From the NCBI RefSeq assembly GCF_010994755.1, contig NZ_WHSB02000008.1:124001-188000 (forward strand): 64,000 bases of DNA, given 5' to 3'. This DNA is from Shinella lacus (GTDB lineage Bacteria; Pseudomonadota; Alphaproteobacteria; Rhizobiales; Rhizobiaceae). Below, piece by piece: positions 40,579 through 48,966 of this stretch. Made by a program: the position numbers and the translations under genes. How positions within the stretch are numbered: the stretch's first letter is position 1; every line of letters begins with the position of its first letter. A model generated the notes under the pieces. It saw nothing but the letters and a program-made list of their open reading frames with translations, had not been told where the DNA came from and searched no databases.

Positions 40579-41750
40579 AGACGCCGCTTCCTGAACCCGG
40601 CGCGCCGCTCGGCCATTACGTCTCCGACGCGCCCTTCGATCCCTATGCCGCGGAGCGCAAGGTCGAGGAGCTGAAGGTCATCGCCCAGGCCTCGCAGTTC
40701 CAGCTCATGTGGTGGCAGTTCCGCCGCCACAGGATGGCGCTCGCCTCCGGCATCTTCCTCATCGCCGTCTACCTGATGATCGCGATCAGCGAGTTCCTGT
40801 CGCCCTACAATCTGCACACCCGCAACATCGACTTCATCTATTCGCCGCCGCAGACGCTGCGCTTCATGCATGAGGGCTCGTTCGTCGGGCCGTTCGTCTA
40901 CGGCCAGACGATGAGGCTCGACATGGACACGCTGCAGCGCGTCTATACCGACGACAGGACCGATGTTCAGAAGCTGCGCTTCTTCTGCCGCGGCGACAGC
41001 TACAGGTTCTGGGGCCTGTTCCAGTCGGACGTGCACCTCGTCTGCCCGGCCAAGGACGGCGAATTCTTCTTCCTCGGCACGGACCGGCTCGGGCGGGACA
41101 TGCTGTCGCGCATCCTCTATGGCGCGCGCATCTCGCTCACCATCGGCGCGCTCGGCGTCATGATGAGCTTCGTGCTCGGCATCGTCATCGGCGGCCTTGC
41201 CGGCTATCACGGCGGCATTTTCGACCTCATCGTGCAGCGTGTCATCGAGGTGTTGCAATCGATCCCCAGCATTCCGCTGTGGATGGCGCTCGCCGCGATC
41301 ATTCCGGTCACCTGGAGCCCTATTCTCGTCTATGTCGGCATTACCATCATCCTCGGCATGCTGGACTGGACCGGACTTGCGCGCGCCGTGCGCTCGAAAC
41401 TTCTTGCCTTGCGCGAGGAAGATTATGTATTGGCGGCCCAGGTCATGGGCGCAGGCAGCGCCCGCATCATCCGCCGCCATCTCGTGCCCGGCTTCATGTC
41501 CCATCTGATTGCCAGCGCAACGCTGACCATTCCGGGCATGATCCTCGGCGAGACGGCATTGAGTTTTCTCGGGCTGGGCCTTCGGCCGCCCATCACAAGC
41601 TGGGGCATTCTTCTGACAGAGGCTCGCAGCATCAACATCATCGCCCTTTATCCGTGGCTGCTTTTTCCGGTAGTACCTGTCGTTTTGGTCATTCTTGCTT
41701 TCAATTTCCTCGGCGATGGACTGCGCGATGCGGCTGACCCCTACAAGTGA
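40575..41750 (+). CDS. Oligopeptide-type ABC importer, permease 2 (DppC-like, long periplasmic loop)
   Basis: This 391-residue permease starts at a GTG. After the first helix (about 48-70) there is an unusually long extracytoplasmic stretch of around 100 residues before FLGTDRLGRDMLSRILYGAR, the conserved DppC start of the channel domain. The coupling loop is REEDYVLAAQVMGAGSARII. Long loops of this kind occur in YejE-type permeases, so the importer may be YejABEF-like. The operon seems to end here; the next gene starts 70 bases later. Confidence 0.87.
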   Translation: MKTPLPEPGAPLGHYVSDAPFDPYAAERKVEELKVIAQASQFQLMWWQFRRHRMALASGIFLIAVYLMIAISEFLSPYNLHTRNIDFIYSPPQTLRFMHEGSFVGPFVYGQTMRLDMDTLQRVYTDDRTDVQKLRFFCRGDSYRFWGLFQSDVHLVCPAKDGEFFFLGTDRLGRDMLSRILYGARISLTIGALGVMMSFVLGIVIGGLAGYHGGIFDLIVQRVIEVLQSIPSIPLWMALAAIIPVTWSPILVYVGITIILGMLDWTGLARAVRSKLLALREEDYVLAAQVMGAGSARIIRRHLVPGFMSHLIASATLTIPGMILGETALSFLGLGLRPPITSWGILLTEARSINIIALYPWLLFPVVPVVLVILAFNFLGDGLRDAADPYK

Positions 41751-41820
41751 GATCGTTGGGACGACCAATGCACAAGAGCTTTTCGACGGCGATCCCGGCG
41801 CGAGCCTGGAGGCTTTTCCC

Positions 41821-43020
41821 GTGAGCCGGAGTTTCGAACACGCCCGCATCCTCATGTACAGCCATGACACGTTCGGTCTCGGCCACCTGCGCCGGTGCCG
41901 CACGATTGCGCATGCGCTGGTCGAGGAATATCGCGGCCTCAACGTGCTGATCATCTCGGGCGCCACCATCGCCGGCGCCTTCGATTACCGCGCCCGCGTC
42001 GATTTCGTGAAGATCCCGAGCGTCATCAAGCTGCGCAACGGCGAATATACCTCGCTGGAGCGCCATATCGACCTCGAAGACACGCTGACCATGCGCCGCT
42101 CGATCATCCGCCACACGGCGGAGACCTTCCGGCCGGACATCTTCATCATCGACAAGGAGCCGATGGGGCTTTCCGGCGAGGTGGAGGAGACGCTCGCCTA
42201 CCTGAAGGGCCGCGGCACGCGGCTGATTCTGGGTCTTCGCGAAGTGATGGACGCGCCGCACCTGCTCGAAGCCGAGTGGAAGCGCAAGGACGTCATGCAC
42301 AAGATCGAGAAGTTCTACGACGACATCTGGGTCTATGGCCCGCCGGATTTCTACGATCCGCTGATCGGCCTCGACGTGCCCGACGGTGTGCGCGAAAAGC
42401 TGAAATTCGTGGGCTTCCTGCACCGCAACGCGCTGCAGATGGACCGCGCCCAGTACCAGCCGACCGGCGACTATATTCTGGTCACCACCGGCGGCGGCGG
42501 CGACGGGGCGGATCTCGTGCAGGACGTCATCCGCGCCTACCAGCACGATCCCGACCTGACCCACAGGGCGCTGATCGTGCTCGGCCCCTACATGCCGCAG
42601 GGCGAGCGCACCAAGCTCACCCAGGAGGCCGCGAAGATCCCCTATATAGAGGTGATCGAGTTTGATTCGCGCATGGAGGACCTGGTCGCGGGTGCGCAGG
42701 GCGTGGTGGCGATGGGCGGCTACAACACCTATTGCGAGATCCTCTCCTTCGACAAGCCGGCGCTGATCGTGCCGCGCGTGCAGCCGCGCGAGGAACAGCT
42801 CATCCGCGCCACCCGCGCGGCCGAGCTCGGCCTCATCGACATGCTGCTGCCGGAGGAATCGAGCGATCCGGTCCGCCTTGCCGCAGCCCTGAAGGCGCTG
42901 CCGAAGCGCCCGCCGCCGTCGAGCGGCCATCCGGGCCTCCGGCTGGAGGGCCTGCGCCACATTGCCCGCATCGTCGGCGACGAGCTGTCGTCGCGCGAAC
43001 TGATCCCGTCCGGCGAGTGA
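41821..43020 (+). CDS. Glycosyltransferase, GT28/MurG-like (first of three)
   Basis: Reading from GTG at 41821 with GGAGG eight bases upstream gives 399 residues. An ATG at 41728 would overlap the permease gene and has no ribosome site. The N-terminus ARILMYSHDTFGLGHLRRC is a GT-B donor-lobe start, and the C-terminal lobe has GVVAMGGYNTYCEILSF followed by PRVQPREEQLIRA, the nucleotide-sugar-binding region of MurG-like enzymes. It shares its plan with the protein encoded at 44495. It probably adds a sugar in a surface polysaccharide or glycolipid. Confidence 0.8.
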   Translation: MSRSFEHARILMYSHDTFGLGHLRRCRTIAHALVEEYRGLNVLIISGATIAGAFDYRARVDFVKIPSVIKLRNGEYTSLERHIDLEDTLTMRRSIIRHTAETFRPDIFIIDKEPMGLSGEVEETLAYLKGRGTRLILGLREVMDAPHLLEAEWKRKDVMHKIEKFYDDIWVYGPPDFYDPLIGLDVPDGVREKLKFVGFLHRNALQMDRAQYQPTGDYILVTTGGGGDGADLVQDVIRAYQHDPDLTHRALIVLGPYMPQGERTKLTQEAAKIPYIEVIEFDSRMEDLVAGAQGVVAMGGYNTYCEILSFDKPALIVPRVQPREEQLIRATRAAELGLIDMLLPEESSDPVRLAAALKALPKRPPPSSGHPGLRLEGLRHIARIVGDELSSRELIPSGE

Positions 43021-44498
43021 GAGGCGAGACCGCGTTGGCGCCCCCGCACAAGATCGTCGTGCTGCTGAAGGGCTATCCGCGCCTGTCGGAAACCTTCATC
43101 GCGCAGGAACTGCTCGGGCTGGAGCGGGCCGGGCTCGACCTCGTGCTCGTGTCGCTGCGCCACCCGACGGATCGCAAGCGCCACCCCGTGCACGACGAGA
43201 TCAGGGCGCCGGTCTTCTACCTGCCGGAATACCTGCACCAGGAGCCCATCCGCGTGCTGCGCGGCCTGTTGCGGAGTTTTCGCCTGCCCGGTTTCGGCGC
43301 GGCCCTGCGGCAGTTCCTGAAGGACTTGCCGCGCGATTTCAGCCGCAACCGCTTCCGCCGCTTCGGCCAGGCGGCGGTGCTCGTCGGCGAATGGCCGGAG
43401 GGCGCCGGCTGGCTGCACGCGCATTTCATCCACACCCCCGCCTCCGTCGCCAATTATGCCAGCAAGATGCTCGGCATCCCCTGGACCGTCTCGGCGCATG
43501 CCAAGGACATCTGGACCTCGCAGGACTGGGAACTCGCCGAAAAGCTCGCGACGGCGCACTGGGCCGTGACCTGCACCAAGACGGGGCACGCGCATCTGCA
43601 AACGCTTGCCGGAGCGAATGGCGACCGGGTGCATCTGAGCTACCACGGCCTCGATCTGGATCGCTTTCCGCCGGTTGATGCGGGAGTACACCCCCCTCTG
43701 TCCTGCCGGACATCTCCCCCTCAAGGGGGGAGATCGGCTGGCGGTGAGGACGGTGCTCAAACGGCGGCCTCCGAGATGGGCGAGACGCTGCTCCATCCAA
43801 TCTCCCCCCTTGAGGGGGAGATGTCCGGCAGGACAGAGGGGGGTGACGCTCACCCGGTGCACGACGCTTGCGGCTGCACACCCGCCGCAAGCAACCCCCG
43901 CCCACCCCGCGACGGCTCCGACCCGCAGAACCCCGTCACCATCATCAGCGTCGGGCGCGCGGTGCCGAAGAAGGGCTATGACGTGCTGCTGCGGGCGCTG
44001 GCCCGCCTCCCCGCCGACCTCCACTGGCGCTTCGTCCATGCCGGCGACGGCGGCGAGCGGGCGATGTTGCAGAGGTTGGCCGAAGAGCTGGGCATAACGG
44101 AAAAGCTCAGCTGGCTCGGCGCGATGGACCAGAAGGACGTGCTCGCCGGCTACCGCGAGGCCGATATTTTCGCGCTCGCCTGCCGCATCACCGCCGATGG
44201 CGACCGCGATGGCCTGCCGAACGTGCTGGTGGAGGCCGCAAGCCAGCGGCTCACCTGCGTTGCAACCGATATTTCCGGCATTCCCGAACTGTTCGAGAAC
44301 GATGTCAACGGCCTGCTGGTGCCCTCGGAAGACCCGGAGGCGCTCGCCGCAGCCCTCGAACGCGCGATCCGCGACCCGGCCCTGCGCGACCGGCTCGGCC
44401 GGGCCGCAGAAGCCAAGGTGCGCGCGAGCTTCGACCACCACACCAGCATCGCCCAGCTCAAATCCCTGTTCGAAACCGCAGCGCGGGAGACCGCATGA
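43017..44498 (+). CDS. Glycosyltransferase GT4 (WcaL-like) carrying an in-frame palindromic element
   Basis: This 493-residue GT-B enzyme is coupled to its neighbours by GTGA at the start and ATGA at the end; a TTG at 43035 is an alternative start. The donor-binding lobe begins at VTIISVGRAVPKKGYDVLLR and contains GLPNVLVEAASQRLTCVATD with the catalytic-type Glu. Between the two lobes, residues about 225-276 are encoded by a complete copy of the palindromic repeat, read as PPLSCRTSPPQGG to HPISPLEGEMSGRTEGG. Without this insert the length would be usual. The frame stays open throughout, so the protein may be functional with an extra linker loop. Confidence 0.8.
   Translation: MRGETALAPPHKIVVLLKGYPRLSETFIAQELLGLERAGLDLVLVSLRHPTDRKRHPVHDEIRAPVFYLPEYLHQEPIRVLRGLLRSFRLPGFGAALRQFLKDLPRDFSRNRFRRFGQAAVLVGEWPEGAGWLHAHFIHTPASVANYASKMLGIPWTVSAHAKDIWTSQDWELAEKLATAHWAVTCTKTGHAHLQTLAGANGDRVHLSYHGLDLDRFPPVDAGVHPPLSCRTSPPQGGRSAGGEDGAQTAASEMGETLLHPISPLEGEMSGRTEGGDAHPVHDACGCTPAASNPRPPRDGSDPQNPVTIISVGRAVPKKGYDVLLRALARLPADLHWRFVHAGDGGERAMLQRLAEELGITEKLSWLGAMDQKDVLAGYREADIFALACRITADGDRDGLPNVLVEAASQRLTCVATDISGIPELFENDVNGLLVPSEDPEALAAALERAIRDPALRDRLGRAAEAKVRASFDHHTSIAQLKSLFETAARETA
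43691..43843. repeat. Palindromic repeat element, copy 5, inside a coding region
   Basis: This 153-base copy has both inverted ends intact, inserted in the glycosyltransferase gene between its two lobes. Because 153 is divisible by three and this orientation is free of stops, the reading frame continues, adding 51 residues. Its ends (TGTCCTGCCGGACATC and GATGTCCGGCAGGACA) are perfectly matched to each other, unlike copies with TGCCCTG/GGCC mismatches, so it may be recent. Confidence 0.82.
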
Positions 44499-45646
44499 GC
44501 AGTCCCCGCGTCCTCTTCTATGTGCAGCACCTGCTCGGCATCGGCCATCTGGCCCGCGCCAGCCGCATCGTGCGCGCACTTGGCGCCAACGGTTTCGCCG
44601 TGACGCTGGTGACCGGCGGCATGCCGGTCGATGGCTTTCCCGGCCCCGGCATCGACCATGTCGCGCTGCCGGCGATCGCCGTCGGTGACGGCGGTTTTGC
44701 AGCCCTCGTCGACGAGACCGGCAAGGTCGTCGACGAGGCCTTCAAGGCCGATCGGCGCGACCGGCTGCTCGCCGCCTACCATGCCTGCCGGCCCGACATC
44801 GTCATCATCGAGGCCTTCCCCTTCGGCCGCCGCCAGGTGCGCTTCGAGCTGCTGCCGCTGATCGACGCGATCGAGGCGAGCACGCCGCGCCCGCTGCTGA
44901 TGACCTCGCTGCGCGATATCCTGCAGGAGCGCGCCAAGCCCGGCCGCGACGAGGAGACCATCGACCTCGTGCGCCGCCATTTCGACCGCGTGCTGGTGCA
45001 TGGCGATCCGGGTTTCGTGCGGCTGGAGGATACCTTTCCGCTGGCCGATGCGATTGCCGATCGCGTCGTCTATACCGGCCTCGTCGGCGCAGGCCCGTCA
45101 ACGCCTGCGGCCGAGCGCTACGATATCGTCGTCTCCGCCGGCGGCGGCGCGGTCGGCGCGGGGCTGGTCGAGGCCGCCCTCCAGGCGTCGCAACGCCTTG
45201 CCGGCAGCGGCCGCTGGCTGGTCATCACCGGCCCGAACCTGCCGCAGGCCGATTTCGACCGGTTTGCCGCGCAGGCGGGGGAGACTGTCGACCTCGTGCG
45301 CTTCCGTACCGATTTCCGCAGCCTGCTCGCCGCCGCGCGCCTCTCGGTCTCGCAGGCCGGCTACAACACGGTCTGCGATGTGCTGGAGGCCGGTTGCGGC
45401 GCGGTGCTGGTGCCCTTCGCGTCCGGCGGCGAGACGGAGCAGACGGCGCGTGCCGAGCGCCTGGAGCGACTCGGCCGGGCGGTCGTCGTGGCGGAGCATG
45501 AGCTTTCTGCGGAAACGATGGCAGGCGCAATTTCCCGCGCGCTTTGCGCCGAAACAGAGAAAAATGTGCCCGATTTGCAACTGGATGGCGCCAATCGTAC
45601 CGCGAATATCCTGAGGGACCTTCTAAAAGGCCACACGGCTTCCTAG
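44495..45646 (+). CDS. Glycosyltransferase, GT28/MurG-like (third of three)
   Basis: The 383-residue protein starts in the preceding stop (ATGA). It begins SPRVLFYVQHLLGIGHLARA, very like the start of the protein encoded at 41821, and has LSVSQAGYNTVCDVLEAGCG in the C-terminal lobe, the donor-binding region of GT-B enzymes. The three glycosyltransferase genes are tightly packed and probably build one oligosaccharide. The donor sugars cannot be read from the sequence. Confidence 0.8.
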   Translation: MSSPRVLFYVQHLLGIGHLARASRIVRALGANGFAVTLVTGGMPVDGFPGPGIDHVALPAIAVGDGGFAALVDETGKVVDEAFKADRRDRLLAAYHACRPDIVIIEAFPFGRRQVRFELLPLIDAIEASTPRPLLMTSLRDILQERAKPGRDEETIDLVRRHFDRVLVHGDPGFVRLEDTFPLADAIADRVVYTGLVGAGPSTPAAERYDIVVSAGGGAVGAGLVEAALQASQRLAGSGRWLVITGPNLPQADFDRFAAQAGETVDLVRFRTDFRSLLAAARLSVSQAGYNTVCDVLEAGCGAVLVPFASGGETEQTARAERLERLGRAVVVAEHELSAETMAGAISRALCAETEKNVPDLQLDGANRTANILRDLLKGHTAS

Positions 45647-45717: not shown

Positions 45718-48435
45718 ATGGAAAAAAGTCTCGCCCGATATATTTGGGACCACACCCGGCCGCAGCAGCTCTTCATCCTGCTGATCGTCGCCCTGTCCAT
45801 GATCCCTTATTATCTCGCCTTCGACCTGCCCAAGCAGATCGTCAACGGCCCGATCCAGGGAAGCGGCTTCGACCAGCCGGGCGATACCGAGCTGTTCATG
45901 CCGATCAGCTTCGACATACCGTTCTGGGGGCATGTCGAGCTTTATGGCGGCCTGCCGCTGGAGCGCATGCCGTCGCTGCTCGCGCTCAGCCTGACGTTCC
46001 TCGTGCTCGTCATCATCAACGGCCTGTTCAAATATTACATCAACACATACAAGGGCCGCCTCGGCGAGCGGCTCCTGCGCCGCATCCGCTATGAGCTGGT
46101 GGACCGCATCCTCCGGTTCCCGCCGAAATATTTCAAACACGTCAAGGCCGGCGAAGTCTCCTCCATGGTCAAGGACGAGGTGGAACCGCTCGGCGGCTTC
46201 ACCGCGGATGCCTTCGTGCAGCCGGCCCTTCTCGGCGGCCAGGCGCTGACGGCGCTGATCTTCATCTTCATCCAGCATTTCTGGCTGGGTTTCATCGCCT
46301 TTGCCATGGCGATGATCCAGGTCGGCATCATCCCGCGCATGCGCCGCCGGCTGATCGAGCTTGGCCGCGAGCGCCAGATCACCGCCCGCCAGCTTGCCGG
46401 CCGCGTCGCCGAGATCGTCGACGGCATCGGCACGATCCACGCCTACGACACCTCCAACTACGAGCGCGCCGACATCGCCGCGCGCCTCGGCCACATCTTC
46501 CGCATCCGCTACGACATCTACCAGTGGAAGTTCCTGGTCAAATTCCTCAACAACTTCCTCGCCCAGCTCACCCCCTTCCTGTTCTATTGCATCGGCGGCT
46601 ACCTCACGATCGTCGGCAAGCTCGACGTCGGCCAGTTGGTGGCGGTCATCAACGCCTACAAGGAGCTGCCCGGCCCGCTGAAGGAACTGATCGACTGGGA
46701 GCTGGTGCGCCAGGACGTGCAGGTGAAATACGAGCAGGTCGTCGAGCAGTTCGATGCCGACAACCTGATCGAGCCGGAAATCCAGGCCCTCAACGCGGCG
46801 AACGGCACCATGCTGAACCATCCGCTCAGCGCCACCAACCTGGTGCTGGAGGACGATATCGGCGGGCGCGTGCTGGAGCACGTCTCGGTCAAGATATCGC
46901 CCGGCGAAACCGTCGCCATCATCGGCACGGCGGCGAGCGGCGGCGACAGGCTGGCCGAAGCGCTCGGCCGCATCATCTGGCCCGCCGGCGGCAAGGTGAC
47001 GGCCGGCGACGACGACCTGTATGCGCTGCCGGAATCCGTGACGGGCCGCCGCATCTCCTATGCCTCGCCCGATGCCTATTTCTTCCATGGCAGCCTGGAG
47101 GACAACCTGCTCTACGGCGTCAAGCATGCGCCCGTTGAGCCCGCCGCCTACAAGGGCGCGGCCTCCGACCAGCGCAAATGGGACGTGCTGGAAGCGCAGC
47201 GCTCCGGCAATCCGGATTTCGACCTCAAGGGCAACTGGATCGACCTGGAGACGCTGCATGCCAATGGCTCGGCCGGGCTGTTCGGCTCGATGATGGCGGT
47301 GCTCGATATCGTGGAACTGTCCGACGACGTGCTGCAGCTCGCGCTGCACTCGACGCTGCCGGCCGATGCCGAGGTGGCACCCGCCGTCGCCGCCGAGATC
47401 GTCGCCTTGCGCCGGGACCTGCGCGAAGAGCTCAACCGCCGCGACATGAACAACCTCGTCATCCCCTTCGAGGAGGACGCCTACAACACAGAGGCGCCGG
47501 TCGCCGAAAACCTGTTCTTCGGCATGATGCCGGACCCGAAGGCCTCGACCCGGGCGATCGTCAAGACGTCGTATTTCCGCAATATCATGCGCGAAAGCGG
47601 GCTCGGCGACGCGCTGTTCAAGATGGGCCAGGGCATTGCCGAAAGCACGGTCGAACTCTTCAAGGACTTGCCGCCCGACCATCCGTTCTTCGAGCAGCTG
47701 ACCTATATGCGGGGCGACGAGATCCCGACCTATCAACACCTGCTCCAGCGCCTGCGACACAATGCCACGCCGAGCGACGAGGACCGCATCGCGCTCATCC
47801 GCCTCTCGTTCTTCTATGTCGAGCCGCGGCACCGCTTCGGCGTGCTCGACGAGGCGCTGATGCGCAAGATCGTAGAAGTGCGCCACCAGTTCCATGCAAA
47901 CCTGCCGCCGGAACTTCAGGGCTATATTGAACGTTACGACCCGAATGCTTATCTGACGTCAGGAACGCTGGTCGACAATATCGTCTTCGGCAAGCTTAAC
48001 CATCGTTATAGCGATGCTGTTCCGAAGTTGAGGGAGATCGGCGGAGACCTGCTCAGGAAAAGGCCCGAGCTTTACCGCGCGCTGATGGCGCTGGGGCTCG
48101 AGTCGAATGTCGGGGCAGGCGGACGGCGGTTGAACAACTTGCAGCGGCTGAAGCTCAGCCTGGCACGCGCACTCATCCGCCGGTCGGATTATTACATCTT
48201 CAACCGGCCGCTCTCGGGGTTGGACCACCACCTCCAGGAGCACATCGTGGAGGCAGCACTTGCGTTCCTGGCCAAGAGCGGTGATAATCCGGCTGTTGTC
48301 TGGGTTTTGTCAAATACCCCGCTTGCAAAACACTTTAAAAGAGTGCTTGCTTTTGATGGCGGAACATTGGTGGAAGACGGAGCCTACGACACGATTGTCG
48401 AAAGCGGTACGGTATACAAGCAACTGATAGCATGA
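45718..48435 (+). CDS. ABC-exporter-like protein with degenerate, enlarged nucleotide-binding domain
   Basis: The 905-residue protein has an N-terminal exporter-type membrane domain (about 1-310; KGRLGERLLRRIRYELVDRI is classical for this fold) and a divergent ATPase domain from about 375. The P-loop reads GTAASGGD (403-410), lacking the Lys and Ser/Thr; the signature is LNNLQ (805-809) instead of LSGGQ; Walker B is YYIFNRP (825-831) with Asp replaced by Asn and Glu by Arg; the switch His is missing (VLSNTP). P-loop and signature lie 400 residues apart instead of about 100-130. Three segments, SLEDNLLYG (459-467), PVAENLFFG (594-602) and TLVDNIVFG (750-758), each resemble the stretch after the Q-loop. 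It probably acts as a non-hydrolysing or regulatory transporter for a glycan. Confidence 0.8.
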   Translation: MEKSLARYIWDHTRPQQLFILLIVALSMIPYYLAFDLPKQIVNGPIQGSGFDQPGDTELFMPISFDIPFWGHVELYGGLPLERMPSLLALSLTFLVLVIINGLFKYYINTYKGRLGERLLRRIRYELVDRILRFPPKYFKHVKAGEVSSMVKDEVEPLGGFTADAFVQPALLGGQALTALIFIFIQHFWLGFIAFAMAMIQVGIIPRMRRRLIELGRERQITARQLAGRVAEIVDGIGTIHAYDTSNYERADIAARLGHIFRIRYDIYQWKFLVKFLNNFLAQLTPFLFYCIGGYLTIVGKLDVGQLVAVINAYKELPGPLKELIDWELVRQDVQVKYEQVVEQFDADNLIEPEIQALNAANGTMLNHPLSATNLVLEDDIGGRVLEHVSVKISPGETVAIIGTAASGGDRLAEALGRIIWPAGGKVTAGDDDLYALPESVTGRRISYASPDAYFFHGSLEDNLLYGVKHAPVEPAAYKGAASDQRKWDVLEAQRSGNPDFDLKGNWIDLETLHANGSAGLFGSMMAVLDIVELSDDVLQLALHSTLPADAEVAPAVAAEIVALRRDLREELNRRDMNNLVIPFEEDAYNTEAPVAENLFFGMMPDPKASTRAIVKTSYFRNIMRESGLGDALFKMGQGIAESTVELFKDLPPDHPFFEQLTYMRGDEIPTYQHLLQRLRHNATPSDEDRIALIRLSFFYVEPRHRFGVLDEALMRKIVEVRHQFHANLPPELQGYIERYDPNAYLTSGTLVDNIVFGKLNHRYSDAVPKLREIGGDLLRKRPELYRALMALGLESNVGAGGRRLNNLQRLKLSLARALIRRSDYYIFNRPLSGLDHHLQEHIVEAALAFLAKSGDNPAVVWVLSNTPLAKHFKRVLAFDGGTLVEDGAYDTIVESGTVYKQLIA

Positions 48436-48481
48436 CTGGTGAGAATTGATCGAGTAGCCGAAATCGAGGCGGTTGACTATT

Positions 48482-48901
48482 ATGATCCTGAACGACGAAG
48501 TACAGATGCTACGACGGGTTCCGCTCTTCTCGGGGATTGATGCGGCAAAGCTCAAGCTGCTCGCATTTGCCTCCAACCGCGTCTGCTACCGTGAAGGCCA
48601 AGAACTCTTCCATCAGGGCGACGAAGGCGATGCTGCCTATGTCGTGCTGTCGGGCGTCGTCGACGTTTACAAGGCAGGCCCTTCCGGAGACGAGAAAATT
48701 GCCTCCGCCGGCTGCTGTTCGGTCGTTGGCGAAATCGCCATCCTCTGCGGCACGGCGCGCAATGCCACGGTGAAGGCCTCAACGGCCGTCGAGGCCCTGC
48801 GCATCAGCAAGGACTGCTTCCTGAAGGTCCTCTCGACCTGCCCGCGCAGCATGGCCGAAACCATGCGTGTGGTCGGCCAGCGGCTTGCCCACAGCCACTG
48901 A
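48482..48901 (+). CDS. Stand-alone cyclic-nucleotide-binding domain protein
   Basis: This 139-residue protein is a single CNMP/Crp-type beta barrel: LRRVPLFSGIDAAKLKLLAF, then LFHQGDEGDAAYVVLSGVVD and the phosphate-binding cassette VVGEIAILCGTARNATVKAS with its conserved Arg. There is no DNA-binding helix-turn-helix. The ATG at 48482 is preferred to a TTG at 48473. Lying 46 bases after the degenerate exporter gene, it may confer control by cAMP, cGMP or another cyclic nucleotide on that protein. Confidence 0.82.
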   Translation: MILNDEVQMLRRVPLFSGIDAAKLKLLAFASNRVCYREGQELFHQGDEGDAAYVVLSGVVDVYKAGPSGDEKIASAGCCSVVGEIAILCGTARNATVKASTAVEALRISKDCFLKVLSTCPRSMAETMRVVGQRLAHSH

Positions 48902-48946: not shown

Positions 48947-48966
48947 CGCCCGCTTTTCGGCGGGCG
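48947..48966 (+). terminator. Rho-independent-like terminator after the cNMP gene
   Basis: Arms CGCCCGC (48947-48953) and GCGGGCG (48960-48966) with loop TTTTCG are followed by TTTGCGTTT. This ends the glycosyltransferase-exporter transcript 46 bases after the last stop. The remaining gap up to 49083 shows no further feature. Confidence 0.6.

Follow-up and report, generated by a model that had tools for sequence, protein, structure and literature searches.

Within a 64,000-nucleotide stretch of the Shinella lacus genome (contig NZ_WHSB02000008.1, positions 124,001 to 188,000 of the forward strand; henceforth termed the window), we characterized a gene for an ATP-binding cassette (ABC) exporter-like membrane protein whose ATPase domain, judged from its sequence and a predicted structure, retains an intact ABC-ATPase fold but is degenerate in each of its motifs (Walker A, Q-loop, signature, Walker B and H-loop). 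Comparative analysis and modelling establish this fold and the loss of the catalytic motifs, together with purifying selection, a triplicated sequence unit and a conserved neighbouring gene. The catalytic residues are lost, yet selection has kept the gene in many alphaproteobacteria, and the protein therefore probably functions without consuming ATP. An exporter with a degenerate ATP site is usually interpreted as half of an asymmetric pair. A family of deep conservation in which both halves of every composite site are gone, graded from near-canonical to fully dead members and accompanied by cousins lacking the nucleotide-binding domain (NBD), would allow direct tests of the capabilities of an ABC membrane domain without ATP hydrolysis and of the way in which coupling was lost. 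The gene and its defining segments are located in the window as follows.

45718..48435, + strand: pseudo-ATPase ABC exporter-like protein, 905 amino acids, with the membrane half at about residues 1-345 and the degenerate NBD, including an insert, at about residues 364-905
45718..46752, + strand: transmembrane domain (TMD), residues 1-345, from PF00664 (E 2.2e-25, residues 87-311) and the predicted model
46924..46947, + strand: degenerate Walker A GTAASGGD, residues 403-410
48130..48144, + strand: degenerate signature LNNLQ, residues 805-809
48199..48210, + strand: degenerate Walker B FNRP, residues 828-831, with Asn829 in all 81 close-clade members
48304..48315, + strand: VLSN, residues 863-866, at the H-loop site, with the switch His replaced

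An earlier note on this DNA had described an ABC-exporter-like membrane half joined to an ATPase domain with these degenerate motifs, and both the PF00664 match and the motif positions bear it out. The Q-loop Gln, absent from that list, is also lost (Pro451). The P-loop and signature are separated by 402 residues, close to the roughly 400 first estimated, whereas the corresponding distance is 104-109 residues in six canonical exporters encoded by the S. lacus genome, and the match to the ABC ATPase family lies just under the curated cut-off (24.8 bits versus 25). Canonical motifs elsewhere in the protein, which the note considered evidence against its reading, were sought in the window protein and all 81 members of its close clade (described below), and no GxxxxGK[ST], LSGG[QE] or hhhhDE pattern was found anywhere in them. 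The open reading frame (ORF) is intact, with a normal GC distribution over the codon positions (0.645/0.374/0.843). An overlapping antisense ORF of 732 amino acids was rejected; codon-position GC, conservation and the ratio of nonsynonymous to synonymous substitution rates (dN/dS) identify the plus-strand frame as the real one.

The predicted model of the window protein (predicted local distance difference test (pLDDT) 83.2, predicted template modelling score (pTM) 0.76) retains a whole ABC NBD, on which the ComA NBD can be superposed over its full 239 residues with a root-mean-square deviation of 2.2. Both components of an ABC exporter fold, the PF00664 TMD and the ABC-ATPase fold of the NBD, are thus present in sequence or model. 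The NBD is expanded by an insert between the Q-loop region and the signature, and a short motif recurs three times along this part of the chain.

47128..47928, + strand: NBD insert, about residues 471-737
47089..47118, + strand: repeat copy 1, GSLEDNLLYG, residues 458-467, at the canonical post-Q-loop position
47494..47523, + strand: repeat copy 2, APVAENLFFG, residues 593-602
47962..47991, + strand: repeat copy 3, GTLVDNIVFG, residues 749-758, in a unit running into the degenerate signature

The three repeats had been proposed in the note as an internal duplication of the region after the Q-loop; their presence stands, with starts at 458, 593 and 749 instead of 459, 594 and 750. Profile-profile comparison showed that the post-Q-loop unit is present three times (U2-U3 E 6e-15, U1-U3 2e-7, U1-U2 8e-7), the best pair aligning over some 65 columns. 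Units U1/U2 and U2/U3 have a few end residues in common, which the aligned ranges avoid. The remaining segment pairs gave E-values of at least 0.0066, except U1-N and T2-T3, which match via residues shared by construction. By these comparisons the units are homologous, and the duplication is of the post-Q-loop unit itself. Their Asn (463/598/754) is invariant in the close clade (81/81 at each site) and nearly so in a more distant set (94/96, 96/96 and 96/96). Predicted on its own, the insert gave a pLDDT of 87.7; no confident structural match was obtained for this separate model, and a sequence search for solved relatives of the large helical insert returned none.

We assembled a close set from the best 80 of 108 confirmed stretches of one scan plus the window (n = 81). 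The set is biased to near relatives because only these best 80 were kept. It comprises Rhizobiaceae, Rhodobacteraceae and five records titled Granulosicoccus or Granulosicoccaceae; among the best 80 of 108, the nearest relatives are four Shinella proteins with 87-88% identity. Members are near full length, with a long open frame in 80 of the 81. The exception, L092 of Shinella granuli, starts near a contig end without the first 89 residues; it is a second, diverged family copy (51% identical) in a genome that also holds the close orthologue L014.

Across the close set, the Walker A Lys position carries Ala (59), Gly (21) or Ser (1), Ser or Thr occurs at the following Walker A position in 0 of 81 members, and Walker B Asp is replaced by Asn in all 81. 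At the catalytic Glu position we found Arg in 51 (among them the window protein), Lys in 21, Glu in 6 and Gln in 3, while the switch His is replaced by Ser (65), Ala (10), Thr (3), Ile (2) or Gly (1) and is retained in none. The Q-loop Gln persists in two members, and the P-loop is one or two residues shorter in 19. The six canonical S. lacus exporters, aligned together with this set, carry the expected K, S/T, Q, D, E and H in the tested columns; a seventh control row, CTL_L004, proved to be a wrongly picked ORF that was present in the motif alignment and excluded from trees and later comparisons.

The gene is nevertheless maintained. Against the four Shinella homologues, dN/dS (Nei-Gojobori) is 0.14-0.19 overall. 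By region, the C-terminal part of the NBD gave 0.09-0.10, its N-terminal part 0.10-0.20 and the insert 0.20-0.32, and two remoter pairs had overall values of 0.18 (L015) and 0.31 (L017). Averaged over the 81 members, the majority-residue share is highest in the transmembrane helices (0.80-0.93), compared to 0.57-0.68 in the NBD and insert, and falls to 0.56 in an enlarged, poorly conserved periplasmic loop (residues 47-82). Judged from these sequences, loss of the motifs is a conserved family trait under purifying selection and not the decay of one gene. The note had likewise argued from the intact frame and codon use against simple decay, and its suggestion of a pseudo-ATPase transporter or scaffold gains from the complete absence of the Walker A Lys and switch His across the clade together with the ABC-ATPase fold of the model. 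From sequence, the pseudo-ATPase nature of the window protein is well supported.

Beyond the close clade, the losses are graded. A class-wide draw of 289 genomes yielded homologues at E <= 1e-40 in 97 (the S. lacus genome included), and in a draw across the phylum 27 of 398 genomes have one, all 27 from the same class or nearer. After removal of duplicates, 108 distant proteins were reduced to 96, giving 177 sequences together with the close set. In the distant members, the Walker A Lys position holds Lys in 60 and Arg in 31 (91 of 96 Lys/Arg), the Ser/Thr position holds Asp/Glu in 72 and Ser/Thr in 7, and the Walker B Asp position holds Asn in 48, Ser in 21 and Asp in 16; the catalytic Glu is found in 51 and the switch His in 33. 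Lys paired with Ser/Thr in Walker A occurs in only 5 of the 177 sequences. In a tree computed without the motif columns, the 81 group together with a support of 1.0, and partly degenerate members surround their clade. In its plain reading, this pattern suggests that the family was compromised early and that the Rhizobiaceae-Rhodobacteraceae branch then became fully dead; the order of the motif losses is not fixed, since several deeper nodes are poorly supported.

Some distant members deserve separate mention. In L188, an in-frame TAG splits the frame, and glycosyltransferases and a gene for a cyclic-nucleotide-binding protein (henceforth cNMP gene) still adjoin it. Long members of about 1,000-1,130 amino acids (L122-L124, L131, L134, L135, L138 and also L125) possibly form a functionally different branch: no cNMP or glycosyltransferase match was found in their fetched stretches, that of L125 having scarcely any downstream flank.

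A search of plasmid records with the window protein uncovered short homologues in marine Rhodobacterales, of which L234 has the TMD only; three further TMD-only relatives come from other genomes.

L234 11773-13077, + strand: TMD-only relative from Phaeobacter inhibens, 434 amino acids, PF00664 only
L250 4543-5817, - strand: TMD-only relative
L251 4516-5727, + strand: TMD-only relative
L252 4432-5697, + strand: TMD-only relative

The three besides L234 measure 404-425 amino acids, and no ATPase family was detected in the two of them that were scanned. In the membrane domain, the four TMD-only proteins share on average 38-39% identity with the family and 14-16% with canonical exporters. In a TMD tree of 17 of the 81 close and 95 of the 96 distant members, the four TMD-only proteins and the six canonical controls (as root), family and TMD-only proteins group apart from the controls with a support of 0.90. 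With the Phaeobacter protein as query in turn, 350 records were hit, of which 227 belong to Rhizobium or Sinorhizobium, and the hits compared by coordinates (e.g., H112, H116) fall in the gene of the pseudo-ATPase family. For three of the TMD-only relatives, the fetched stretch contains no LSGG-type ATPase ORF; the sole one near the fourth is about 8 kb off, beside genes annotated as an iron ABC transporter. L234 itself lies amid copper-protein and cytochrome c genes. Since this membrane-domain lineage occurs without an ATPase domain, an ATP-hydrolysis-independent function of the pseudo-ATPase form becomes more credible.

Gene calls in the neighbourhood are simple ORF choices and not gene-finder output. 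The window carries the following features around the pseudo-ATPase gene.

48473..48901, + strand: stand-alone cyclic-nucleotide-binding-domain protein (PF00027, E 3.1e-21), 37 nt past the stop of the pseudo-ATPase gene; called from TTG, with an internal ATG the likely start
48947..48966, + strand: terminator-like hairpin after the cNMP gene
44495..45646, + strand: glycosyltransferase, Glyco_tran_28_C (PF04101, E 1.4e-15), directly upstream
42732..44498, + strand: GT4-type glycosyltransferase (PF00534, E 9.9e-36), as called, with the true start probably later
41695..43020, + strand: second Glyco_tran_28_C glycosyltransferase (PF04101, E 9.3e-8), ORF as called

The hairpin is weak evidence for a terminator, as the scanned stretch holds four such sites against a mean of 3.4 in shuffles. 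The cNMP gene is present in 75 of the 81 close loci, in 74 of them as the next gene on the same strand. For the distant set, context was counted in the 69 of 96 loci whose flanks each extend over 3 kb or more; the cNMP gene occurs in 59 of these and in 56 lies at most 900 nt away on the same strand. Its products conserve Glu at position 87 (65 of the 75 close homologues) and Arg at position 96 (70 of 75), both present in the window protein's neighbour; in cyclic-nucleotide-binding domains, these residues bind the phosphate and ribose of the ligand.

Glycosyltransferases of two clusters occur somewhere in the flanks of 72 of the 81 close loci. Among the 69 distant loci, Glyco_tran_28-type and GT4-type glycosyltransferases are each found in 48, a Methyltransf_17-type methyltransferase in 30 and a DUF2334-like cluster protein in 25, the DUF2334 match of that cluster being sub-threshold and its sole Pfam hint. 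DUF2334 proteins are deacetylase-like. Of the 69 distant loci, 45 have a Glyco_tran_28-type gene upstream in opposite orientation and none has one upstream in the same orientation; in the window it is co-directional. Genes downstream include a 2Fe-2S-domain cyclase in 20 loci, mostly of Agrobacterium type, and an MBL-fold protein in 23. In the Agrobacterium-type locus L017 (9376-12200), for instance, an MBL-fold phosphodiesterase-like gene and then a 2Fe-2S (Fer2) cyclase gene follow the cNMP gene, and another contig of the S. lacus genome encodes a nearly full-length match to this cyclase with 36% identity. Upstream of the three glycosyltransferases, the window also contains genes for ABC-type uptake of the oligopeptide kind (35317 to about 41750, + strand), with a two-ATPase-domain protein, SBP_bac_5 and two permeases; a similar gene set lies near the pseudo-ATPase gene in records of Rhizobium TAL182, S. 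meliloti ml46 and Azospirillum B510.

Our best reading is that the protein would be an ATP-hydrolysis-independent membrane component of a glycan pathway, tied to a cyclic-nucleotide sensor. We infer oligomeric state, partner, ligand, substrate and any energy source as follows. The transmembrane half would be the working part and, beside its glycosyltransferase neighbours, would act on the glycan or glycolipid that they make. The dead NBD would serve as an ATP-hydrolysis-independent docking or gating platform, enlarged by two extra copies of a repeat unit that in exporters is located near the NBD-membrane interface. Its likeliest partner would be the cyclic-nucleotide-binding protein encoded just downstream, such that the membrane half might be switched by a cyclic nucleotide, most likely cAMP, instead of by ATP hydrolysis. 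It might then transport, passively or on a proton gradient, or only organize enzymes. We give somewhat better than even weight to the core of this proposal, namely an ABC-exporter-fold membrane protein, probably a homodimer, with a dead NBD that acts as a platform, likeliest for the cNMP protein, and a membrane half that handles the glycosyltransferase product.

Several observations weigh against it. The link to the cNMP protein is one of gene position only, and the cNMP gene was not found in the fetched stretch of 6 of the 81 close and 10 of the 69 distant loci. The glycan link is weaker still: only 24 of the 81 close loci have a glycosyltransferase among the first three called genes upstream, which means that in Agrobacterium-type and related loci these genes are not adjacent, and no glycosyltransferase match was obtained in 21 of the 69 distant loci. 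Cyclase and phosphodiesterase neighbours likewise occur in a minority of loci. The sequence of the degenerate P-loop could still permit weak nucleotide binding. Finally, L185 (5655-8351, - strand) is the sole member with all five tested residues canonical (K-T, D-E, H), at the expected motif positions. Some members may for this reason still have ATPase activity or have acquired it anew; L185, either a relic or a reversal, provides a natural control.

A bolder version of the proposal is that the lineage swapped ATP hydrolysis for a cyclic-nucleotide signal and became a ligand-gated flippase or channel for a surface glycan. Its dead NBD, with the triplicated helical unit, would sense a cNMP-binding protein dedicated to it, and NBD-less forms of the membrane domain would belong to the same lineage. 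We regard this as unlikely. Rather unlikely, too, is a switch that binds ATP at the altered site and gates the membrane half without hydrolysis. The NBD fold is intact in the predicted model, and distant members often keep Walker A Lys/Arg (91/96) and Walker B Glu (51/96), so that residual nucleotide binding is possible there above all; the window's clade, however, has Ala, Gly or Ser in place of the Lys throughout and a shortened P-loop in 19 of 81.

Improbable in our view is that the protein forms the degenerate half of a heterodimer in which a canonical half-exporter brings the consensus ATPase site. In paired half-exporters, each half gives Walker A to one site and the signature to the other; because Walker A and signature are both lost here, neither composite site would be complete. 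The S. lacus genome encodes at least six canonical half-exporter-type proteins as potential partners, and a canonical exporter ORF lies near the family gene in five loci only (L038, L042, L045, L051 and L122), but at the remaining 77 of 81 close loci and the remaining distant loci, the fetched flanks (6 kb at most for close loci, only about 1.4 kb for many distant ones) showed no full-length ORF for a canonical exporter, though a partner might be encoded elsewhere. Exporters with one degenerate site are common in general, according to a review (PMC7756269).

The idea of a non-transporting scaffold that holds glycosyltransferases and a cyclic-nucleotide sensor at the membrane ranks behind the heterodimer as a further improbable alternative. 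It would fit the glycosyltransferase genes around 48 of the 69 distant loci and the large helical insert, but it sits poorly with the membrane helices being the most conserved region and with TMD-only relatives that lack the presumed scaffold part. A decaying pseudogene or sequencing artefact, as the simultaneous degeneracy of every motif, the truncated L092 and the interrupted L188 could suggest, can be dismissed given the long open frame in the other 80 of 81 close members, dN/dS well under 1 and the normal codon-position GC.

Many public records name family members 'ABC transporter ATP-binding protein', 'ATP-binding cassette domain-containing protein' or 'ABC transporter transmembrane domain-containing protein', the first of which is misleading for the window's clade, and we found no paper on this family in the open-licence literature searched. 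Among known systems, the window protein shares the PF00664 family and the NBD fold with exporters of the MsbA and PCAT1 types, PCAT1 being its best sequence match in the PDB (E 3.8e-26). It differs from them in lacking every catalytic motif and in having about 300 extra NBD residues, and its TMD is only 13-18% identical to that of the six canonical exporters. An assignment as MsbA lipid A exporter was rejected, as the best NCBIfam match, TIGR02203, reached 142.4 bits compared to an equivalog cut-off of 602. Exporters with one degenerate site, which resemble the window protein in their degenerate ATP-site residues, retain one consensus site via a partner or second half. The window protein has lost both Walker A and signature, with a canonical ORF nearby in only the five loci named above. 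Examples of such one-site exporters in the review are TM287/288, TmrAB, TAP and MRP1 (PMC7756269).

The CFTR channel and the SUR regulator are ABC-exporter-fold proteins in non-pumping roles, a likeness to the role proposed here. In the same review, CFTR (ABCC7) and SUR (ABCC9) are described as binding ATP at both sites (PMC7756269), by which they differ from the window family, in addition to belonging to a separate lineage. S. meliloti MsbA2 is an ABC exporter encoded next to glycosyltransferases on pSymB (PMC12239276, PMC3687685). Identity of the window family with MsbA2 was rejected, since MsbA2 is a separate gene on the pSymB record CP140883.1, where another gene represents the window family: the acyltransferase-glycosyltransferase-glycosyltransferase-ABC order published for msbA2 encodes there a protein of about 600 amino acids with the P-loop GRSGAGKT, and the identification rests on that order. 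A further resemblance is to the SbmA/BacA-like peptide transporters (SLiPT), whose ABC-exporter-like membrane domain is reported to work without an ATPase (PMC13316013). The NBD-less cousins share their TMD-only domain make-up, a comparison of make-up and not of homology; SbmA is described there as proton-driven and TMD-only, whereas the window protein retains a whole, dead NBD.

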